From positions 62,001 through 126,000 of the forward strand of contig NZ_MJUX01000008.1 in assembly GCF_001927245.1 (NCBI RefSeq): a DNA stretch of 64,000 nucleotides. Reading direction: 5' to 3'. Shown here in pieces: positions 1 through 9,178 of this stretch. Both the position numbers and the translations under genes were made by a program. The notes below the pieces were generated by a model. It saw only the letters and a program-made list of their open reading frames with translations, did not search any database and had not been told where the DNA came from. Origin of the DNA: Acuticoccus yangtzensis (GTDB lineage Bacteria > Pseudomonadota > Alphaproteobacteria > Rhizobiales > Amorphaceae). The stretch's first letter is position 1, and the number at the start of each line of letters is the position of its first letter.

Positions 1-1064
1 TGCTCCACCAGGCGCAGCGCGTTGCCGCGGAACACCAGAAGCGCCTCGCCGATGCGGCGGATCTCGCCCGACCCGCCGATGGTGGGGAGTTCGTTGAGGT
101 CGCCTTTGGACAGCGCGCTGAGGGTGCCGATCGCAGTCTCGAGCGGGGCGAAGGCGCGGCGCAGGAAGACGTAGAGCGCGCCGATGAGCACGAGACCGGC
201 GACGGCGATGGCGGCGATACCGGTCTGCTCCAGGCCGCGGCTCGCCGACAGGCTCAGCGTCGCGTCCCGCAGGGTGACGAGCTGCCCGGCGGGCGGGCCG
301 CCGAGGTCGGGCACGGGGACGCCCGCGGCGAAATAGAGCCGGTCACCGAGGGCGATGATCTCGGCATCGGCGGTGCGGTGCGGCAGAGCGGGGTCGGCGG
401 CGTCGTAGAGGGCGGGGTCGGTGCCGGTCACCATGCGGCCGCGCAGGGAGACGAGGTAGCTCGGCTCGCCGAGGCGGGTGCTGAGGTCTTCCAGCACGGT
501 CAAAGCATCGACCATCAGCGCGACGATGACGGGCGGGCCGCTGCCGCGCGCGGCGACGCTGCTGCCGACGACGACGTAGCGCGTGGACGTCTCCTGCCGC
601 AGTCCGCCGGGTGCGCCGGCTTCGGCGGGATCGGTCCCGGCGGTGCCAGAGGCCACCGCGTCGCCCAGTTCCTGCATCGCGGCGAGTTCGGTCGGGCCGA
701 AGATGGGGCGCGTGCGGAAGGTCGGCACGTTGGAGGCGAGGATGTCGCCGTCGATGGAGAGGAGCTGCACCGTTTCGCCGCCGGTGAGGAGGTCGGCGGA
801 TTCGGCGACCACCTTCTCCATCGCGTCGGCGGCGGCGGAGGGGGCGCTGCTGACGCGCAAGGCGAAGAGGTCGGCCTGAGCGCTGAGATCCTCGGCACGG
901 TCGGCGACGAGACTTTCCCAAAGCGATTGCTGCCCGGCGATGGCGATGTCGGCGAGCTGCGCCTCGGTCTGGCGGGTGCGCAGGGATCCGAGGGCGATGA
1001 GGGCGGCCACCATCAGCACCAGCGCCAAGGAGAGGAGAAGGGTGATGCGGTTGCGCAGGAGCAT
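1..1064 (-). CDS. HAMP-domain membrane sensor, C-terminal part outside the window
   Basis: The frame opens with ATG at 1064 and stays open to base 1, giving about 354 residues; the C-terminus lies beyond the left edge. Seen: an N-terminal membrane helix (residues about 8-25), a periplasmic region of about 240 residues with the ending LSIDGDILASN that resembles a Cache-like strand pair, a second helix near residues 285-305, and then a HAMP domain ending GEIRRIGEALLVFRGNALR, a form common in alphaproteobacterial receptors. The output domain is not visible. Its start overlaps the stop of the upstream sensor-MFS gene by one base (TGATG), so it is the third gene of that transcription unit. Because STAS and GHKL partner-switch proteins lie at 8413-9178 without a phosphatase, a PP2C/SpoIIE output is my first guess; a chemoreceptor, histidine kinase or nucleotide cyclase is also possible. 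Confidence 0.8.
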   Translation of the reverse strand, partial: MLLRNRITLLLSLALVLMVAALIALGSLRTRQTEAQLADIAIAGQQSLWESLVADRAEDLSAQADLFALRVSSAPSAAADAMEKVVAESADLLTGGETVQLLSIDGDILASNVPTFRTRPIFGPTELAAMQELGDAVASGTAGTDPAEAGAPGGLRQETSTRYVVVGSSVAARGSGPPVIVALMVDALTVLEDLSTRLGEPSYLVSLRGRMVTGTDPALYDAADPALPHRTADAEIIALGDRLYFAAGVPVPDLGGPPAGQLVTLRDATLSLSASRGLEQTGIAAIAVAGLVLIGALYVFLRRAFAPLETAIGTLSALSKGDLNELPTIGGSGEIRRIGEALLVFRGNALRLVE

Positions 1065-3040
1065 CAGCGGGCCCATCCCAGCGCGTGGGTGACGGCGGCC
1101 AGGACGGCGAGGCCCGCCAGCGCGGTTGCCGCGATGGCGGCGAGGGCGAGGCCCGCCCCCGGCTGAACCATGTCGGCCGCATGGAGGGCGCCCGCCGCCA
1201 CCCCGCCGACGCCGATGGCGATGGCCGAAGACGGCACGAAGGCGCGTGCGCCGAGCGCGAAGGCGACGATCCCGAACCCCAGCCCGGCGAGCACGCTGAC
1301 CGCCGGTTGCAGCACATCGACGCCGACTGCCGCGGCGGCGGGAACGAGCCCGGCCCCGGCGAGAACGGCGGCCGCGGCGACGAGGCCCCCGGCCGGCGCG
1401 GGCAGCCGCCAGCGCAGCAGCACCGGCACGAAGGAGGCCGCCCCGGCGAGGCCGAAGTTCAGCGCCATCTCGGCATAGCGTTCGCGCAGGACGGTGCCCG
1501 CCAGGGAGACATCGGCCCAGGCGAAGAGGGCGAGGCTGGCGGCAAGAAGGGCCAGAACGTCGGCAGGGGAGAGGCGCAGGGCGGGCGGCACCGGCCTGCG
1601 GCGCTGTGGCAAACGCGGCGCCCCCGCGGTGGACGCGACGGCGAGCAGCGCGGCCAGCACCCCCAGCGTGGCGAAGGCGGCCCGGCGCCCTTCCGCCTCG
1701 GCGAGCAGGCCGCCGATCATCGGCCCCGCGGCGGCGGCGCCGAGCAGCACGATGGCCCCGCGCCACGGCAGGCGCCGTCCGGCCCCCTCAGTCGCCAGCA
1801 CCGACCACACCGCGAACCAGCCGCAGAAGGCTGCGAAGGTGACGGTGGCGGTGAACACCCGGTAGTCGCGGATGACGTAGACGGCGGCGTAGGCGGCCGC
1901 GGCCATCAGCATGGCGGCGAAGGTCGCGGGCTTGGACCAGCGCCCCGCCAGGAGCGCGGCGAGGATCACGCCGAGGATCGCGCCAATCGTCTCGGCGGTG
2001 ACGGCGAAGGCAACGGCGACCTCGGCGAAGGGGTCGTTGCCGATCCGGTCGTAAGCGAAGTTGGCGATGAGCGGGCGGGTGGCGGCGATGACGGTGAGCG
2101 CGGCCGCCGGCCACCAGACGAGGCCGATATGGCGCAGCCGCCCGCGCCGGGTTTCGAGGCGCAGGCCCTCAAGCGCGCCCAGCGCATCGCCGACGCGCTG
2201 GCGCACGGCGGCCGACCCGTCCACCGCCTTGATCTCCTCCACCAGCGCCTGAATGCGCCGGTAGGTGAGCTGGATCGGCGTCACCGCACGGGCGAGCGCG
2301 TCGGCCACCGGCGGCAGAACACCGGCCGGCGTCAGGCCGCGGATGACGAAATGGCCGCGCGCTGCGGCATGGAGCATGGCGGCGGTGCGCACGGTGGGAA
2401 GGTCGACCCGCTCCAGCCGGACGATGCGCACCGCGAGCCCGACGAGGATGCCGGCGAGCAGGGCGACGGCCGCGGCGGAGGCGGCGATTGCCCGCATCAC
2501 CCCCGCGTGGGTGGCGCTGGATGCCTGGGCGATGACGCTGCCGATCGCCGCGCCCTCCCCGTCTCCGGTCCCGCCCTCTCCTTCGCCGGTCCCGCCCGCA
2601 GGCGCCATGATCGGCGCGCGGGCGTGCGGCCGGTCGAGCAGCGCATCGCCGGAGCGGGACGAGAAGAGCAGCCGCTCCTGTCGGTCGAGGATGGCGATGC
2701 CGTCCACCTCGGGCGCGAAGCCGAGGATTTCGGACAGGTAGTCGTCCACCCCCCGCATCGCGCCGAGGGGAATGCCGAGGCCGACGGCGCGCGACAGGTC
2801 GGCGGCGACGGACTGGGCGACGGTGGCGGCGACGTCGGACGATTTGACGTCGAGGTCGGCGAGGACGGGCGGCATCGCGACGATGACGGCCACATAGGAC
2901 GCGAGGCCGACGAAGAGCGCCGTCAGCAGCCCGGCGAGCGCCGCGATGCGGTCTGACGCCACGGATCCGCTGACATAGCGGCCGCGGCGGAGGGTCACGC
3001 GCGGGCCCGCCACCGGAGGGCGGGGATCAAAGCTCTGCAT
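1064..3040 (-). CDS. Periplasmic sensor domain fused to an MFS-like membrane bundle (left arm)
   Basis: 658 residues. The ATG at 3040 is chosen because the first helix follows it directly; the frame is open further upstream but only across the preceding gene. Order: helix at about 35-58; periplasmic region (about 60-180) with GLGIPLGAMRGVDD and then a strand pair ending RLLFSS; second helix near 190-215; a HAMP/coiled-coil-like linker (about 215-310); then a hydrophobic bundle of 10-12 helices to the C-terminus. The bundle looks like a diverged major facilitator fold, with few of the conserved MFS loop motifs. It overlaps the small sensor gene upstream by 14 bases and the HAMP gene downstream by one base, so the three are co-transcribed. 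The counterpart at 4631-6622 has the same architecture. Sensing plus signal transfer, rather than plain transport, is my inference; I know of no characterised member. Confidence 0.75.
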   Translation of the reverse strand: MQSFDPRPPVAGPRVTLRRGRYVSGSVASDRIAALAGLLTALFVGLASYVAVIVAMPPVLADLDVKSSDVAATVAQSVAADLSRAVGLGIPLGAMRGVDDYLSEILGFAPEVDGIAILDRQERLLFSSRSGDALLDRPHARAPIMAPAGGTGEGEGGTGDGEGAAIGSVIAQASSATHAGVMRAIAASAAAVALLAGILVGLAVRIVRLERVDLPTVRTAAMLHAAARGHFVIRGLTPAGVLPPVADALARAVTPIQLTYRRIQALVEEIKAVDGSAAVRQRVGDALGALEGLRLETRRGRLRHIGLVWWPAAALTVIAATRPLIANFAYDRIGNDPFAEVAVAFAVTAETIGAILGVILAALLAGRWSKPATFAAMLMAAAAYAAVYVIRDYRVFTATVTFAAFCGWFAVWSVLATEGAGRRLPWRGAIVLLGAAAAGPMIGGLLAEAEGRRAAFATLGVLAALLAVASTAGAPRLPQRRRPVPPALRLSPADVLALLAASLALFAWADVSLAGTVLRERYAEMALNFGLAGAASFVPVLLRWRLPAPAGGLVAAAAVLAGAGLVPAAAAVGVDVLQPAVSVLAGLGFGIVAFALGARAFVPSSAIAIGVGGVAAGALHAADMVQPGAGLALAAIAATALAGLAVLAAVTHALGWAR

Positions 3041-3773
3041 CGAGCCGCCTGAGGTCACGCTGCACGCGCTCCACCCGCGCTTCGGTGTCGCCCATGCCGG
3101 AGATGGCGGCGTTGGCGGCGATGCCGAGCGCACCGCGCGGCGGCTCGATCGGCGCACGGGCGCGCACGCTGGCACCCGTCGCGGCGATCCAGCGGTTGGT
3201 GCGGCTATAGATGACGAGGCCGAGACCGAGGCCCGCCGCCGCAACCGCCACCAGAACCAGCGCGGCACCGCTGATCAACGTTCCCATGCGCGACAAAGGC
3301 GGAGCCAGCCGCTCGGCGTCGACGATGATGGCGACCCATCCTTCGCGCTGGCCGAAGTCGTTGCTGAGCGGTTCGCCGAAGGTCACCGTCTCGCGCTCGC
3401 TGGCGCGCCACATGCCGCGGGAGGTCGCCGCCGCATCGGCCCAGGCGGGCGGCACGGGCTCGCCCACGGCGCCGCGGTCGGTGGAAAAGAGCGTCACGCC
3501 GGTGAGGCTGATGACGTCGGCGGCGAGAACGTCGGGCGCCGAGGCGACGGCGCTTTCCAGGATGGTATCGACCTGCTGCAGTTCGGCGAGTGGCAGGCCG
3601 AGTTGCAGGTTCAGCTCCACTGTGCGGGTGATGCCGGACAGCAGGAACTCGAGCTCCGCGGCGCTGAGGCCCGCGTCGGCCCGCTCGACCACGCGGGCGG
3701 AGACGAGCAAAAAGCCGAGTGCCGCCAGGACGGGCACGATCGCACACAAGAGAAGGCCGCCGGTCCGTCCCAT
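3027..3773 (-). CDS. Small two-helix periplasmic sensor without output domain (left arm)
   Basis: 248 residues. Seen: helix at about 6-25, a periplasmic stretch of about 140 residues with LQLGLPLAELQQVD followed by a strand pair ending VTLFSTD, a second helix at about 165-190, then only about 55 cytoplasmic residues ending in a charged helix (EARVERVQRDLRRLDAEL). There is no kinase, cyclase, GGDEF, phosphatase or receptor signalling domain. The sensor region resembles single-Cache-type domains of alphaproteobacterial receptors. It is the first gene of the leftward unit and sits back to back with its paralogue at 3932-4627 across 158 bases. A role as ligand-binding partner of the sensor-MFS protein with which it overlaps is inferred. 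Confidence 0.7.
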   Translation of the reverse strand: MGRTGGLLLCAIVPVLAALGFLLVSARVVERADAGLSAAELEFLLSGITRTVELNLQLGLPLAELQQVDTILESAVASAPDVLAADVISLTGVTLFSTDRGAVGEPVPPAWADAAATSRGMWRASERETVTFGEPLSNDFGQREGWVAIIVDAERLAPPLSRMGTLISGAALVLVAVAAAGLGLGLVIYSRTNRWIAATGASVRARAPIEPPRGALGIAANAAISGMGDTEARVERVQRDLRRLDAEL

Positions 3774-3931
3774 GAGTCTAACAAATGTGGCAGAATGGCG
3801 TGAAGTTCGGCGGCGGGACCTTGGCGTGTGGCGCGTCAGTCTTCAAAGTTGCCTCGCCCATAAGCATTGACAGTGATCGGTCCTTCGACGATGCGACACC
3901 ATGTTCCGCCATTTCGACTGCGAAGGACGTC
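3774..3931. promoter_or_regulatory. Divergent promoter region between the two sensor arms
   Basis: This 158-base gap is the only space between the two divergent units and must hold both promoters. On the plus strand TTGACA at 3867-3872 is a perfect -35 hexamer, but the sequence 17 bases on (GATGCG) is a poor -10, so the assignment is weak. A good ribosome site GAAGGA (3922-3927) precedes the ATG at 3932. No convincing inverted repeat was found. Confidence 0.35.
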
Positions 3932-4627
3932 ATGCGAAAGCTCAGTCTGACGTTGCTGGCCGCGCTGATCCCTCTGGTTGCGGCGTCGCTCGCACTCGGA
4001 AGCTACCTGAACTATGCTGGGGTCCGCCACAATTACCTTGAACTCGTTGGCGCGCGCATGTCCACCGTCGCACGGCGCATGGCGAACGATGCGGAGGTTG
4101 CGATGTCGCTCGGCGTGCCGCTCGCCAGCCAGGACGTGATGAACACCGCGCTGGAACGCGAGGCCGAGGCGGACCCGATGATTCTCTCGGTCGACGTGGT
4201 GGCGGACGGGGGGCGCGTGCTCTTCTCCAGCGACCCCGCCCGGCGCGACACGGCCGAACCCGCCGCCGACCCTGCGGCCATCCGCCACGAGGTGCCGATC
4301 GCCAGCGCGTTCGGCACGCGCGAGGGGGCCGCGGTCGTGCGGACCTCAAACGCGGCGGTCGAGGGCGCGCTGGGCGACATGGGCCGCAGCATCCTGTGGC
4401 TGTCGCTCGCGGCGACGCTTCTCGGCATTCTCGTCGTCGCCGGTGCGGTGGCGATGAGCGTGCGCGCCTTGTGGCAACGGCTGACGGCGCGCGGCCCCAC
4501 CGTGTCCGGCGCCATGGTGCCGGAGGAGACCCGCGCCGCCTTCGCTTCGATCGACGCCGAACACAGCGCCATCGCCCTGCGGCTCGGCCAGAAACGCGGC
4601 GCCGCAATCCCCGGCCGGGGGGCCTGA
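3932..4627 (+). CDS. Small two-helix periplasmic sensor without output domain (right arm)
   Basis: 231 residues, starting at the ATG at 3932, which has GAAGGA five bases upstream and leads directly into the first helix (MRKLSLTLLAALIPLV). The periplasmic part carries MSLGVPLASQDVMN and then a strand pair ending GRVLFSSD, matching the left-arm protein in layout and motif. A second helix lies at about 155-178, followed by a tail of about 50 residues with no recognisable output domain. Its stop is three bases before the start of the sensor-MFS gene, so the two are translationally close. This repeats the small sensor then sensor-MFS order of the opposite arm, which indicates an inverted duplication or long co-evolution. 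Function unknown; binding of a periplasmic ligand or of the binding protein at 6628-7647 is inferred. Confidence 0.72.
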   Translation: MRKLSLTLLAALIPLVAASLALGSYLNYAGVRHNYLELVGARMSTVARRMANDAEVAMSLGVPLASQDVMNTALEREAEADPMILSVDVVADGGRVLFSSDPARRDTAEPAADPAAIRHEVPIASAFGTREGAAVVRTSNAAVEGALGDMGRSILWLSLAATLLGILVVAGAVAMSVRALWQRLTARGPTVSGAMVPEETRAAFASIDAEHSAIALRLGQKRGAAIPGRGA

Positions 4628-4630
4628 GCG

Positions 4631-6622
4631 ATGCGGCGTTTCGACGGTGTTCTTCTCGTCTTCGTCACCGGGGTGCTCATCCTGGGGCTGGCGGCGATCT
4701 CGTGGCAGACCATCCGCAGTGCCGAGCGACTGCTGCTTCCCGCGCTCGACCAGAACGCGCGCACCCTCGCTCGCTCCGTCTCCGGCCTCGTCGGCCAGGC
4801 GGGCGATTACGGCATCCCGCTCGACCGCCTCGTGCGCGCCGAGGACGTGCTCGACGCGGGGCTCGCCGAGAACCCCGAATTCGCCTTCATCGAGATCGTC
4901 GACGGCGCGGGGCTGGTGGTCGCCAGCGCAACCAACCACGAGTTCGACCTCGACGGGATCGACCCGGAGCGGATCGAGACGGTGCGCGCGCCGATCCTCA
5001 TCGGCGGCGCGGAGGTGGGCGCCGTCATCGTCGGCACGCCCGACCTCGTCGCCCGGTTGATGGTGCGCGAATTGTGGCTCGACGTGGCTGTTCTCCTCAT
5101 CGTCGCCGTCCTGGTGGCGTTGGAGCTCGTCTCCTTCGCCTTCTCGCAGGCGTCGGCGTTGATGCTGCGGGGCCTCGCCCAACGGCTTTCGGCGCTGTGG
5201 CGGGGGGATTTCCGGCCGCATCTGCCGCTGAAGGGGTCCGGCACCATCGCCCAGGAGGTCGAGGCGGTGGACAGCGAGATCGACCGCGTGCGGGCCGAAC
5301 ACGAGACGCTGCGCCTCGCCGCCGAGGCGAAGGGCGACCACGAGGCGCTGGCCCAGCTCGCGCGGATCGACAAGACCCACAAGCTGAGCGGCCGGCGCTA
5401 CGAAACGCCGGTCGGACTGGTGGCGGTGCGTGCCCCGGTCTTCCTCTTCTACTTCGCCGAGGAGCTGACGCGCCCCTTCCTGCCGAGCTACATCGAGCGC
5501 ATGGCGGTGCCGGTCGCCGGCCTCTCGGTCGAGTTCCTGATCGCGCTGCCGATCACCATCTTCATGGCCATCATGGCGCTCGGCCAGCCGGTGCTGAACG
5601 TGTGGACGGAGCGGTTCGGGCGCTCGCGGTCGATCCGGCTCGGCGCGCTGGCGGCCGTGCTCGGCTTCCTCGCCACCGCCTTCGCGGGGACGATGGAGAC
5701 GCTGATCGCGGCGCGTGCGCTCACCGCTGTCGGATTCGCGGTGGTGTTCGTGGCGGCGCAGGGCTTCATCGTCGACCGTACGGGCGCCGACAACAGGGCG
5801 CGCGGGATGAGCCTCTTCGTCTCCGCCATCATGGCGGCGATGCTGTGCGGCCCGCCCATCGGCGGCATCATCGCCGACCGGCTCGGCCCCAGCCCCACCT
5901 TCCTCGTCTCTGCGGCGATGGCGCTCATCGCCTACATCTGCGCCGTCGTCGCCCTTCCGGCGGACGCGGGACGGGGCACGGTGGCCGCCAAGCCCGCAGC
6001 GCGCCTCAGGGACTGCGCCATCGTCCTCACCAAGCCGGCCATCTTCCTCCTGATGGTCGCCTGCGCCTTCCCGGCCAAGATGATCCTCATCGGCATCGCC
6101 TTCTATTACATCCCGCTCGAGATGTCGGCGACGTTCGAGCCGTCCACCATCGGCCGCGTCTTGATGCTCTACGGCCTCGTCATGCTGCTCGTCGTCCCGG
6201 CCATCTCCGCCTTCTCGGACACGAAGGGCAAACGGGTGCCCTACGTCGTCCTCGGCGGGGTGATGTCGGGCCTTGCGGTGGCACACCTCTTCCTGTGGCC
6301 GGCGCCGTGGGGCGCGGCGTTGTTCGTAATCCAGACCGGCATCGCGCAGGGGCTGTCGACCACGCCGCAATCGGCGCTCGTCGGCGAGCTCGGCCGGCGA
6401 TACTTCCCGCAGCTTTCCGAAGGCGGCGTCTACGGCGTTTTCCGGCTGGTGGAGCGGTCGGGCAACGCGGCCGGGCCGGCGATCTTCGCGGCCGTGTGGG
6501 CCGCCACATCGGCCGAGGTCGCGATCCTCTTCATGGGCTTCGTGCTCATCGCCGGGGCGCTCCTCTTCGGCATCGCCATGTTGGCGGCGCCGCCGCGCCC
6601 CGCCCTCCTGCCCAGCGAGTGA
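4631..6622 (+). CDS. Periplasmic sensor domain fused to an MFS transporter bundle (right arm)
   Basis: 663 residues. Order: helix at 5-27; periplasmic domain with DYGIPLDRLVRAEDVLD and the following EIVDGAGLVVAS; second helix at about 145-175; HAMP-like linker and helical segment (about 175-255); then a clear MFS bundle from about residue 260. The loop GQPVLNVWTERFGRSRSIRL fits the position of MFS motif A between helices 2 and 3, and GPPIGGIIADRLG fits the family's helix 5-6 region. About 12 helices can be counted in the MFS part. The next gene begins five bases after the stop. The MFS half is much closer to a real transporter than the left-arm paralogue, so this one may transport or bind a small molecule while signalling. 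Which output it drives cannot be seen from the sequence. Confidence 0.8.
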   Translation: MRRFDGVLLVFVTGVLILGLAAISWQTIRSAERLLLPALDQNARTLARSVSGLVGQAGDYGIPLDRLVRAEDVLDAGLAENPEFAFIEIVDGAGLVVASATNHEFDLDGIDPERIETVRAPILIGGAEVGAVIVGTPDLVARLMVRELWLDVAVLLIVAVLVALELVSFAFSQASALMLRGLAQRLSALWRGDFRPHLPLKGSGTIAQEVEAVDSEIDRVRAEHETLRLAAEAKGDHEALAQLARIDKTHKLSGRRYETPVGLVAVRAPVFLFYFAEELTRPFLPSYIERMAVPVAGLSVEFLIALPITIFMAIMALGQPVLNVWTERFGRSRSIRLGALAAVLGFLATAFAGTMETLIAARALTAVGFAVVFVAAQGFIVDRTGADNRARGMSLFVSAIMAAMLCGPPIGGIIADRLGPSPTFLVSAAMALIAYICAVVALPADAGRGTVAAKPAARLRDCAIVLTKPAIFLLMVACAFPAKMILIGIAFYYIPLEMSATFEPSTIGRVLMLYGLVMLLVVPAISAFSDTKGKRVPYVVLGGVMSGLAVAHLFLWPAPWGAALFVIQTGIAQGLSTTPQSALVGELGRRYFPQLSEGGVYGVFRLVERSGNAAGPAIFAAVWAATSAEVAILFMGFVLIAGALLFGIAMLAAPPRPALLPSE

Positions 6623-6627
6623 GTGCC

Positions 6628-7647
6628 ATGACGCTGACACGACGCAACGCCCTCATCCTCGGCGCAGGCGCACTCGGCGCAAGCGCCCTTGCCGCCCCTT
6701 TCGTGGGCCGCGCCCGGGCGCAGGGCCGCTACCGCATCGCGCAGATCCTCTATCGCGGCGAGACGCAGGTGGAGGCCGGCTTTCGCGACTATCTGGAACA
6801 ACGCGGCGTCGACGCCGAACTGATCGTCTTCAACGCGGAGCTCGACCCGTCGCGGGTGCCGGGCATCGTCGAAGAGGTGAAGGCGCTGGCGCCGGACCTC
6901 GTCTATTCCTGGGGAACGCCCAACACGATCGCCACCTTCGGGCGCGCGGCGGACGTCGACCCCGCCGTCAACATCACCGAGCTGCCGGGCGTCTTCACCA
7001 TGGTGTCGGCCCCGGTGGAGTCGGGCCTCGTCCCCTCCCTCGCCTCGTCGGGCCGCAACATCACCGGCACCAGCCACGTGGTCCCGCCCGAGCCGCAGCT
7101 GAGGGCGATGCAGTCCTACAAGCCCTTCACCCGGCTCGGCGTGCTCTACACGCCGAACGAGCCGAACTCAGCCGCCATCGTCGGCCGGGTGAAGGAGGTG
7201 GGTGAGGAGATGGGCTTCACCGTCGCCGAGCGGCTCTTCCCCATCGGCGCGGACGGCAAGCCGGACGGCTCCGTCGCCGCCGAGCTGGTGGAGGAATTGG
7301 GCGCGGAGGGCTCGGAATGGCTCTATTACCTGCCCGACACGTTCCTCCTCCTCCAGATGGAGCGGGTCACGCCGACGGCGACGCGCCTCGGCATCCCCGG
7401 CTTCTCGGCGGTGGAGACGATGCAGACGGATGCGCTCATCAGCCTCGTCAGCCGGTACTACTCGGTGGGCCAGCTCACGGGCTACAAGGCGGAGCAGATC
7501 CTCGTCGAAGGCCGCGACCCGGCCTCGATCCCGATCGAAACGCTGCAACGCTTCGCCCTCATCATCAACATGAAGATGGCCAAAGCGATGGAACTCTACC
7601 CCCCGCTCGCCATGCTGAACTACGCCAACATCTTGAGGGACGAGTGA
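6628..7647 (+). CDS. ABC-type substrate-binding protein, Tat-exported (ABC_sub_bind family)
   Basis: 339 residues. The N-terminus [19 protein letters not shown] carries a twin-arginine motif and a cleavage site after residue 31 (GRARA), so the mature protein is probably exported folded. The mature part ([20 protein letters not shown]..., then [20 protein letters not shown] and [19 protein letters not shown]) is typical of the periplasmic binding family of TrpX/YtqB-like proteins (Pfam ABC_sub_bind), with two Rossmann-like lobes. No permease or ATPase gene is present nearby, so an uptake role is unsupported. The gene sits five bases after a sensor-MFS gene and overlaps the next gene by four bases. 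By context it probably presents a small ligand to the sensor proteins; this is inference. Confidence 0.82.
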
Positions 7648-8429
7648 AGGTCCGGGTCGATCTGCCGCCGCCCATCGCCCCCGCCCTCAGGATGCTGACG
7701 GCGGCGGACGTGCCGGAGATCTACGACGTGCACTGCCGCGTGCTGGCGGCGCTGCCGGCGCTGAACCTCGTGCGGCGGGACACGCCGGACGTGTTCCACG
7801 CGATGCTGGAAACCGGAGGGGCGATCACCGGGCTGATGCACGAGGGCGAGATCATCGCCTACGGCATGGTGCGGCCGGAGATGGACGCGCATGGCGAGGA
7901 CGACGGAGACCGTCCCGGCTTCGGCGACCACATCGCGCCGGACGAAAGCCTCTTCGTGCTCGACGGGTCGGCGGTGCGGCCGGACCACTGGTCGCGCGGC
8001 CTGCAGCGCACTTTGATCACGGCGCGGATCGCCCATGCCCGGCGGCGCGGCGCGGACCATACGGTGTGCACCGCGGCGCCGAACAACGTGCCGTCGATGC
8101 GCAACCTCACCAAGGAGGGGTTTCGCATCGTGCGCGCCACCAAGAAGGCGTACGGGATGCGCTATCTCTTGTGGCGCCCTGTCGCGGACCCGGCGCCGCC
8201 GCGACCTGAGGACGGGGAATGGCGCCCCGCGCGCGACACCGGCGGGGCCAATGCGCTGTTCGCGCGGGGGTCGTTCGCGTTCGATGCCATCCGCGGCGGG
8301 GATCAGGCCGAGGCCTTCCTGCGCTTCACCCCGCCGGCCGACGGCGCGGCCTGGGACATTGCCAAGCAGGACGACGCGGCGGAGCTATTAGGCGAAGCGG
8401 CCGAGCCGGAACTCAGCGCGCCGAGCTGA
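7644..8429 (+). CDS. GNAT-family N-acetyltransferase
   Basis: 261 residues, read from the GTG at 7644 that overlaps the previous stop (GTGA) and is preceded by GAGGGA. The GNAT core is clear: a strand, then [19 protein letters not shown] (acetyl-CoA pyrophosphate loop plus helix), then [19 protein letters not shown], the usual second half of the fold. The substrate is unknown. About 80 extra C-terminal residues follow the fold and end in an acidic tail. It is the last gene of the rightward sensor unit and its last 17 bases overlap the 3' end of the convergent STAS gene, so transcription of the two may interfere. An acetyltransferase in a sensor/partner-switch island may modify a ligand or a protein of the pathway; nothing in the sequence decides this. 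Confidence 0.8.
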
Positions 8430-8757
8430 CCGCCTCGTCGCGGCTGTCGCGGACCTCGAACAGGCGCAGGAATCCCGTCACCTCGAACACGTCGCGCACC
8501 GAGGGCTGCATGCCGCACAGCACGAACTCGCCCTTGGCGGCCTTGATCTGCTTGCCGGCCATCAGGATCACGCGCAGGCCCGCGCTCGAAATATAGTGGG
8601 TGTCGGTCAGGTCCATCACGACGCGGGTCGCACCGTCCTGGATCCGCCCGATGACGGTCGACTGCAGCGTCTTCGCCGTGTTGGAATCCACCCGCCCGGT
8701 GCACACGAAGACGGTGACGCCCTCCGCACTCTCGAGCTCGATCGTCAGATCGCTCAC
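8413..8757 (-). CDS. STAS-domain anti-sigma factor antagonist
   Basis: 114 residues, a single STAS domain. The phosphorylation loop reads [14 protein letters not shown] (residues 52-65); Ser58 aligns with the phosphorylated serine of SpoIIAA/RsbV. Proteins of this family bind an anti-sigma-type kinase when unphosphorylated and release it when phosphorylated by that kinase; a PP2C phosphatase restores binding. The gene lies four bases downstream of the GHKL kinase gene, the usual pairing. No sigma factor and no complete phosphatase are visible in the window. The 3' end overlaps the convergent GNAT gene by 17 bases. Confidence 0.9.
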
Positions 8758-8761
8758 ACGC

Positions 8762-9178
8762 TCAGCCTTCCTCTATCGTCAGTTCGAATGTGAGGACGTT
8801 CTCCGTCCCCTGGCGTTCATAAACGGGGTTCTGCGCCATCTGGCGTACGATGTGGAGGCCGAGCCCGCCGATCGGCCTGTCGTCGATGGAGGCGTCGAGG
8901 TCCGGCGCCTCGTGCAGCAGCGGGTTGAAGGCTGAGCCGTTGTCGCGCACGGCGGCGTGCACGGCCCCGCCGCGCAGTTCGGCGCGCACGGACACCTTCG
9001 CGCCGTCGGGTCCGGCGCCGTATTGGATGGCGTTGGTCACCAGCTCTTCCAGGAGAAGGTTGAGCGTCATCACCGTTTTCATGGGAAGGCCCTCAGCGTC
9101 GCCGAAGGCCTCCACCGCATCGAGCAGGCCGGTCAGGTCGTCGGCATCGGTGAGGGTGAAGGCGACGGCGGCGACCAT
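8762..9178 (-). CDS. Anti-sigma-factor-type serine kinase (RsbW/SpoIIAB-like GHKL ATPase)
   Basis: 138 residues. The Bergerat ATP fold is intact: N-box NLLLEELVTNAIQYG (with E and N), G1 box DNGSAFNP, and G2 box GGLGLHIVR. It is the short, soluble form typical of anti-sigma factors and of switch kinases that control other targets. It is followed by the STAS gene after four bases, and the pair forms its own two-gene unit. In related systems the kinase holds a sigma factor, an anti-anti-sigma protein or an enzyme; the target here is not visible. Its position next to the sensor island, convergent with it, suggests the sensors act through this switch. Confidence 0.9.
   Translation of the reverse strand: MVAAVAFTLTDADDLTGLLDAVEAFGDAEGLPMKTVMTLNLLLEELVTNAIQYGAGPDGAKVSVRAELRGGAVHAAVRDNGSAFNPLLHEAPDLDASIDDRPIGGLGLHIVRQMAQNPVYERQGTENVLTFELTIEEG

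Follow-up and report, generated by a model that had tools for sequence, protein, structure and literature searches.

Partner switches of the Rsb/SpoIIA type (RsbU/RsbV/RsbW; RbaY/RbaV/RbaW) are built from a SpoIIE/PP2C phosphatase, a STAS protein with an SS motif and a GHKL serine kinase, and RsbW-type kinases classically bind sigma factors. Here we describe a nine-gene sensor/MFS/partner-switch island of the marine bacterium Acuticoccus yangtzensis, located at the left end of the window, i.e., the whole stretch of 64,000 nucleotides that was analysed (C28:62001-126000; genome of 5,043,263 bases). We read the island as a receptor-driven partner switch with a cyclic-nucleotide output and put the probability of this whole reading at roughly 0.55; this figure, like the gradings given below for the switch and for the cyclase as its output, is a judgement and was not computed. 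By the three features tested, namely a SpoIIE phosphatase with its motifs, a STAS protein with a candidate phosphorylatable serine and a GHKL kinase, the sequences place the switch in the known Rsb kind.

For RbaVWY of Rhodobacter capsulatus, the published description (PMC3999984) gives a proposed sigma target, with no RbaW–sigma contact found, and a REC domain in RbaY. The island differs by having an orphan binding protein and sensor-MFS proteins as input, by a linked cyclase, and by the absence of a sigma factor gene among ten flanking genes scanned (cyclase included), no search aimed at sigma factor genes elsewhere in the genome having been made. SiaABCD of Pseudomonas aeruginosa is likewise a phosphatase/phospho-protein module controlling a second-messenger cyclase; its SiaD is a diguanylate cyclase, whereas the candidate linked to the island is a class III nucleotide cyclase (PF00211), with no diguanylate cyclase partner among the scanned neighbours. 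The phosphatase of the island (gene A) scores 38 bits against the SiaA equivalog profile, for which the cut-off is 700. The SiaB and SiaC components of that system are distinct from RsbW and STAS proteins. By analogy, the island would work like SiaABCD in coupling a phosphatase and a phospho-protein to a second-messenger cyclase but is not a member of that system.

On the input side, the MFS protein UhpC of UhpABC is a sensor that works with a histidine kinase; the island resembles it in the predicted use of an MFS protein as a receptor and differs by a fused outer sensor domain, which UhpC is not known to have. The binding protein (gene F) belongs by sequence to the TrpX/ABC_sub_bind family (PF04392), with 6hni, 3lkv and 3lft as relatives of solved structure. 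It differs from TrpXYZ by a twin-arginine start, by a score of 89 bits against a TrpX profile cut-off of 390, and by the lack of an ABC permease or ATPase gene among those scanned in the island and its flanks. A literature search, judged from titles and abstract openings and leaving most subscription papers outside, turned up no description of this gene set, its input or its output.

From the genes, domains, conserved motifs, linkage, co-occurrence and fusions observed, we infer a ligand, its docking, a direction of control, a kinase–cyclase contact and a product. The orphan binding protein F, presumably exported by the Tat route, would capture a small molecule outside the membrane. It would dock on the small sensors C and D and on the sensor-MFS proteins E and B by way of their outer domains, and the transporter-like bundles of E and B would serve as receptors or transceptors. 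The receptor complex would set the activity of the HAMP-SpoIIE phosphatase A. Kinase I would phosphorylate H, the STAS protein, on its conserved serine, residue 57 or 58, and A would remove the phosphate; dephosphorylated H would then capture I, and the partner of I would be freed or activated. The likeliest partner would be a class III cyclase, here the PAS-cyclase encoded beside A, with cAMP or a related cyclic nucleotide as output. A chemical signal from outside the cell is thus probably converted into an internal messenger. If true, this reading connects a receptor with a transporter fold to a partner switch and to the synthesis of a cyclic nucleotide, three things not found linked in the literature searched, and it gives those RsbW kinases that lack a linked sigma factor a target that can be put to the test.

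Gene layout and the partner switch

The analysis was extended 10 kb leftward (locus L008; L008 coordinate = window + 10000), and all nine genes are present in the window plus this extension:

Gene A, 1..1064, minus strand: 5′ part of a HAMP-SpoIIE serine phosphatase gene (whole gene L008:8947-11064, 705 aa; last 1054 bases left of the window)
Gene B, 1064..3040, minus strand: second sensor-MFS fusion, divergent, 658 aa; no Pfam hit, profile match to E
Gene C, 3027..3773, minus strand: small sensor with two hydropathy peaks, 248 aa; no Pfam hit, related to D
Gene D, 3932..4627, plus strand: small sensor with two hydropathy peaks, 231 aa; sub-threshold DUF7190 match alone
Gene E, 4631..6622, plus strand: sensor-MFS fusion, 663 aa; MFS_1 (PF07690) 3.7e-36 at residues 271-616
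Gene F, 6628..7647, plus strand: orphan ABC_sub_bind (TrpX-like) binding protein with twin-arginine N-terminus, 339 aa; ABC_sub_bind 7.1e-22
Gene G, 7644..8429, plus strand: GNAT N-acetyltransferase, 261 aa; Acetyltransf_1 2.5e-8
Gene H, 8413..8757, minus strand: STAS anti-sigma-antagonist-type protein with YISSAGLR motif, 114 aa; STAS 8.7e-22
Gene I, 8762..9178, minus strand: RsbW-type serine kinase, 138 aa; HATPase_c_2 5e-20

The minus arm runs C, B and then A across the left window edge, the plus arm runs D, E, F, G, and I and H lie convergent with the plus arm, the G/H gene overlap being 17 bases. This layout of nine genes, described in the original prediction, is confirmed by the open reading frames and Pfam. 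The two arms look like a duplication of one sensor/sensor-MFS pair, because C and D, D and the N-terminus of E, and E and B are related in profile comparison; some loci in other families carry a single sensor-MFS gene.

The original prediction had called the HAMP protein truncated and had expected a phosphatase left of base 1. The protein is cut by the window edge alone, and the extension bears the expectation out: the full product of A ends in a SpoIIE phosphatase domain (Pfam, 1e-46, residues 512-701), which makes the switch complete, with A as phosphatase, H as STAS protein and I as kinase. The motifs VGGDF-D, ADVSGKG, TDG-TEA and DD-T, which we take to be SpoIIE/PP2C metal-binding motifs, are invariant in 10 of 10 aligned sequences of A. 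Upstream of this domain, the HAMP match (6.9e-4, 20.3 bits) falls under the cut-off of 25, and no Cache match was found at E 0.05; the homologues of A in two genomes (G204 and G302) have dCache_3 above cut-off. The sensor of A was considered as a further copy of the small sensors, a relationship that profile comparison does not support (hhalign 12%). Two other loci encode SpoIIE phosphatases of 971 aa (L094:6634-9549 and L095:14915-17830) with an extra N-terminal stretch resembling the sensors of the sensor-MFS proteins.

In H, the YISSAGLR motif is invariant in all 8 aligned sequences. In I, residues E45, N49, D79 and G104-G105-x-G107, presumably belonging to the GHKL kinase boxes, are likewise invariant (8/8); I scores below the RsbW and SpoIIAB equivalog cut-offs of NCBIfam. 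A is the sole SpoIIE match in the genome, H the sole STAS protein of its type at E ≤ 1e-5, and I (a 140-aa frame) the only small one among 16 HATPase_c_2 matches, the others being at least 342 aa long. The simplest reading is that A, H and I act with one another, and they very probably form a working switch fed by the receptors encoded beside them.

Linkage and the class III nucleotide cyclase

The island set, predicted earlier to co-occur in relatives, recurs linked rather than scattered: eight other family members carry it, six with the full set at one locus and two (G004 and G006) with the kinase/STAS pair elsewhere, and variants extend across Alphaproteobacteria. G013, a genome from a different family, has the complete nine-gene set with an alanine racemase gene between G and H, and a further genus member (G001; 89% complete, 550 contigs) gave no match to the island. 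Nor does the left-edge gene carry an unrelated output with the STAS/kinase pair adjoining an unrelated phosphatase, as G004 and G006 keep their only SpoIIE match inside the island although the I–H pair has moved. With a SpoIIE domain found left of base 1, co-occurrence of the genes, and neither contrary outcome seen, genomics gives good support to the predicted route, in which the receptor acts through the HAMP protein on the switch; the hand-over of a ligand and sensing by the MFS proteins would be its earlier steps.

A scan of genome contigs gave three loci, all close relatives; therefore, breadth was taken from profile searches for the sensor-MFS gene (E ≤ 1e-40) in samples of 385 class genomes and 397 order genomes. 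These searches, like those for the full-length phosphatase and the PAS-cyclase given below, scored two to four candidates per genome, so that misses are possible. The gene was found in 21/385 and 26/397 genomes, 46 distinct genomes in total, of which 43 were examined (G640, G699 and G772 of genus g370 lie outside the 43); five of the 43 fetched stretches are shorter than 10 kb. Weak MFS-only matches (L031 and L032, in G026 and G032) and a second match in G007 (L021) were excluded from the counts. The 43 stretches contain a small sensor gene in 41 cases, a binding protein in 39, SpoIIE in 29, GNAT in 24, RsbW in 22 and STAS in 20.

A full-length phosphatase, with its own sensor and SpoIIE, occurs in 18 of the 397 order genomes (the G606 copy is cut by a contig end). 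All 18 are among the 26 with the sensor-MFS gene, against none of the 371 without it (Fisher 2e-25, ignoring kinship). Another 15 order genomes match the SpoIIE half alone, G461 and G746 being the two among them with a sensor-MFS gene. Of 35 genomes, 29 have SpoIIE within the fetched stretch where chance would give 0.31, and 20 have a cyclase in the neighbourhood where chance would give 1.04; kinship makes the counts non-independent, but the cyclase neighbourhoods come from eight families. The 35-genome set was chosen after the loci had been seen and omits eight of the 43 (five of them shorter than 10 kb); none of the eight has a SpoIIE domain or a cyclase in its stretch, and over all 43 the counts stay at 29 and 20. 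The 24-family Poisson figure of 9e-7 counts G055 as a separate family f49b although it is in f49, and the family totals of 27 and 24 are one too high.

The candidate cyclase lies outside the window, and this likely output was missed in the original prediction:

PAS-cyclase gene, L008:7109-8452 (window -2891 to -1548), convergent with A, 494 bases apart: PF00211 2.2e-16, PAS 3.2e-11

It probably belongs to the system. Residues D181, D225, N306, R310 and K221 are invariant in 11 of 11 aligned sequences; we take D181 and D225 to be the metal aspartates, N306 and R310 the transition-state residues, and K221 the adenine-specifying lysine. Near-full-length matches (at least 703 bits; next best 300) are found in 11 of 397 genomes, each adjoining A, and all 11 genomes are island carriers (nine of family f1 and two of f216). 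No other cyclase was found among the flanking genes scanned. An RTX calcium-binding-repeat protein (L008:3242-4399) is encoded upstream of the helicase and cyclase genes.

At five loci in three families (L030, L101 and L102 in f5, L104 in f14, L081 in f49), RsbW forms the C-terminal domain of a 550–571-aa protein and is preceded there by a cyclase-type domain; the five stretches contain no separate PAS-cyclase. The cyclase profile was built from 12 domains taken from the fetched loci themselves, and a later Pfam check covered all the fused proteins and part of the other ORFs of the loci: PF00211 is above cut-off in four, and L081 reaches 21.0 vs 21.9 bits. An unfused counterpart of the fused cyclase lies near a free RsbW at L084; this protein (L084:8626-10548) contains TPR-S and class III cyclase domains and clusters with the cyclase–RsbW fusions. 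In two genomes of one genus (G204 and G302; loci L083 and L085), the sensor half of the phosphatase leads into a cyclase where SpoIIE would otherwise stand; the domain is similar to the PAS-cyclase (39%, 6e-65). The locus has neither STAS nor RsbW, and the STAS matches elsewhere in the genomes are weak (2e-7, 2e-8). A CHASE2-cyclase lies near the island genes at L092.

In the gene architectures compared, a class III cyclase is tied to the system in three ways (as neighbour, by fusion and by replacement), which makes the kinase–cyclase link checkable in nature's own variants. That the cyclase is the output of the switch in this genome is a prediction to which we give slightly less than even odds.

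Weighing the readings

That unrelated genes merely adjoin in one genome can be dismissed as practically refuted, given the recurrence of the set in eight further family genomes and in G013 and the excess of SpoIIE linkage over expectation. A classical arrangement is a more serious, though still less likely, alternative: STAS and RsbW would be fed by the receptor and phosphatase as before, RsbW would sequester an unlinked sigma factor, and the cyclase would respond to the signal independently, as a second output. The classical role of RsbW-type kinases speaks for it, as do the 11 of 29 SpoIIE loci without a cyclase nearby and the sigma target proposed for RbaVWY, yet in that system no RbaW–sigma contact was found. 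The scan of ten flanking genes, which did not extend to unlinked sigma factors, offers it no candidate, and the kinase–cyclase fusion in five loci, together with the two genomes in which a cyclase stands in for the switch, suggests that the cyclase is an output of this very pathway.

Another view takes the binding protein and MFS proteins as serving mainly uptake or export, with the sensors and switch regulating transport or its genes. The MFS domain of E is indeed well formed, with a GPPIGG stretch and charged residues that do not vary across the aligned loci, its nearest matches are drug-efflux-type MFS proteins (NCBIfam matches, all below cut-off, and Foldseek), and a GNAT gene and, in relatives, alanine racemase and other enzyme genes adjoin. 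We nevertheless consider a transport operon improbable, as F has no adjacent ABC permease or ATPase among the genes scanned, the island holds four related sensor domains, and at most loci a phosphatase or cyclase output accompanies the receptor genes.

Several observations weigh against a receptor-driven switch with cyclic-nucleotide output. The sampled genomes are related, so the counts are not independent; at L112 (G689), the phosphatase and the sensor-MFS gene are on different contigs; and six loci of at least 10 kb (L087, L091, L097, L108, L110 and L111) have receptor genes with neither SpoIIE nor a sensor-cyclase nearby. The cyclase is missing from the fetched stretch at 11 of the 29 SpoIIE loci (L082, L086, L088, L090, L093, L094, L095, L099, L106, L107 and L109), and G204 and G302 hold four and one other SpoIIE matches elsewhere. 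The RsbW-fused cyclase is of a different branch, with no significant blastp match to the PAS-cyclase. In all five fused domains, the position which we take to specify adenine lacks the lysine, and L081 also lacks the asparagine presumably used in the transition state (both read by eye, the program alignment being off there); because of these losses, the product of the fused cyclase may not be cAMP. Finally, AF2 models of E and B from four-row alignments are poor (mean pLDDT 51.4 and 55.0).

As cyclase-less SpoIIE loci, a divergent fused cyclase and receptor-only loci all exist, the receptor may be a general input with several outputs. In genus g370, a ParA/MipZ-like ATPase gene (L110:6767-7429, L111:12368-13072) comes next to GNAT, after the receptor genes, with no switch nearby, and this ATPase is a possible further output. 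Somewhat short of even odds, we tentatively propose a wider generalisation: that the binding protein and sensor-MFS complex constitute a new bacterial receptor class, a plug-in input module of Alphaproteobacteria, and that in many species this module drives a partner switch whose RsbW kinase acts directly on a class III cyclase, with cAMP or a related nucleotide as the output of a switch based on serine phosphorylation.

Candidate receptor proteins and the binding protein

B has no Pfam match at E 0.05 and is classed as MFS-type by profile comparison alone, its profile aligning with E over 470 columns that span the sensor and MFS parts (hhalign 99.5%, E 7.7e-23); of its 11 hydropathy peaks, two lie within the sensor part. 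The same method relates C to D (99.0%) and finds in the N-terminal part of E a relative of D (98.0%). C, D and full-length E are each present in 10 of 10 aligned loci.

The domain calls of the original prediction held for MFS, ABC_sub_bind, GNAT, STAS and HATPase_c_2; HAMP remained below cut-off and Cache found no match in the small sensors. Since neither C nor D has a Pfam hit above any cut-off, we infer the "Cache-like" label of the small sensors, and Cache-type domains in C, D, E and B may be proposed from topology and a low-confidence model. Foldseek with that model of E hints at WalK-type sensor domains in the N-terminus (TM by target 0.49–0.59, E 0.08–0.15) and at an MFS-like C-terminus (VMAT2 5.8e-4, NorA 1.2e-3). 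D gave no match among solved structures at E ≤ 1.

In F, residues R5 and R6 are invariant in 10 aligned sequences, and we read this twin-arginine start as a Tat export signal. G has only a weak match among solved structures.

An alanine racemase gene (Pfam) lies near the receptor genes in eight loci (L030:12578-13705, L081:12772-13974, L087:12517-13638, L100:5970-7088, L101:12763-13920, L102:6101-7237, L103:12777-13898 and L104:12849-13892), in seven of them between the GNAT gene and the STAS or RsbW gene; this neighbourhood may hint at an amino-acid ligand. Amino acids are also the ligands of binding proteins of solved structure related to F. Other enzyme genes seen near the receptor genes encode a ketopantoate hydroxymethyltransferase-like enzyme (L082:5674-6663, L086:6949-7917), two D-Ala-D-Ala-ligase-like proteins at L094 (3521-4531 and 5804-6664) and a formyltransferase (L092:7256-8131, L093:16978-17811, L107:12041-12925).

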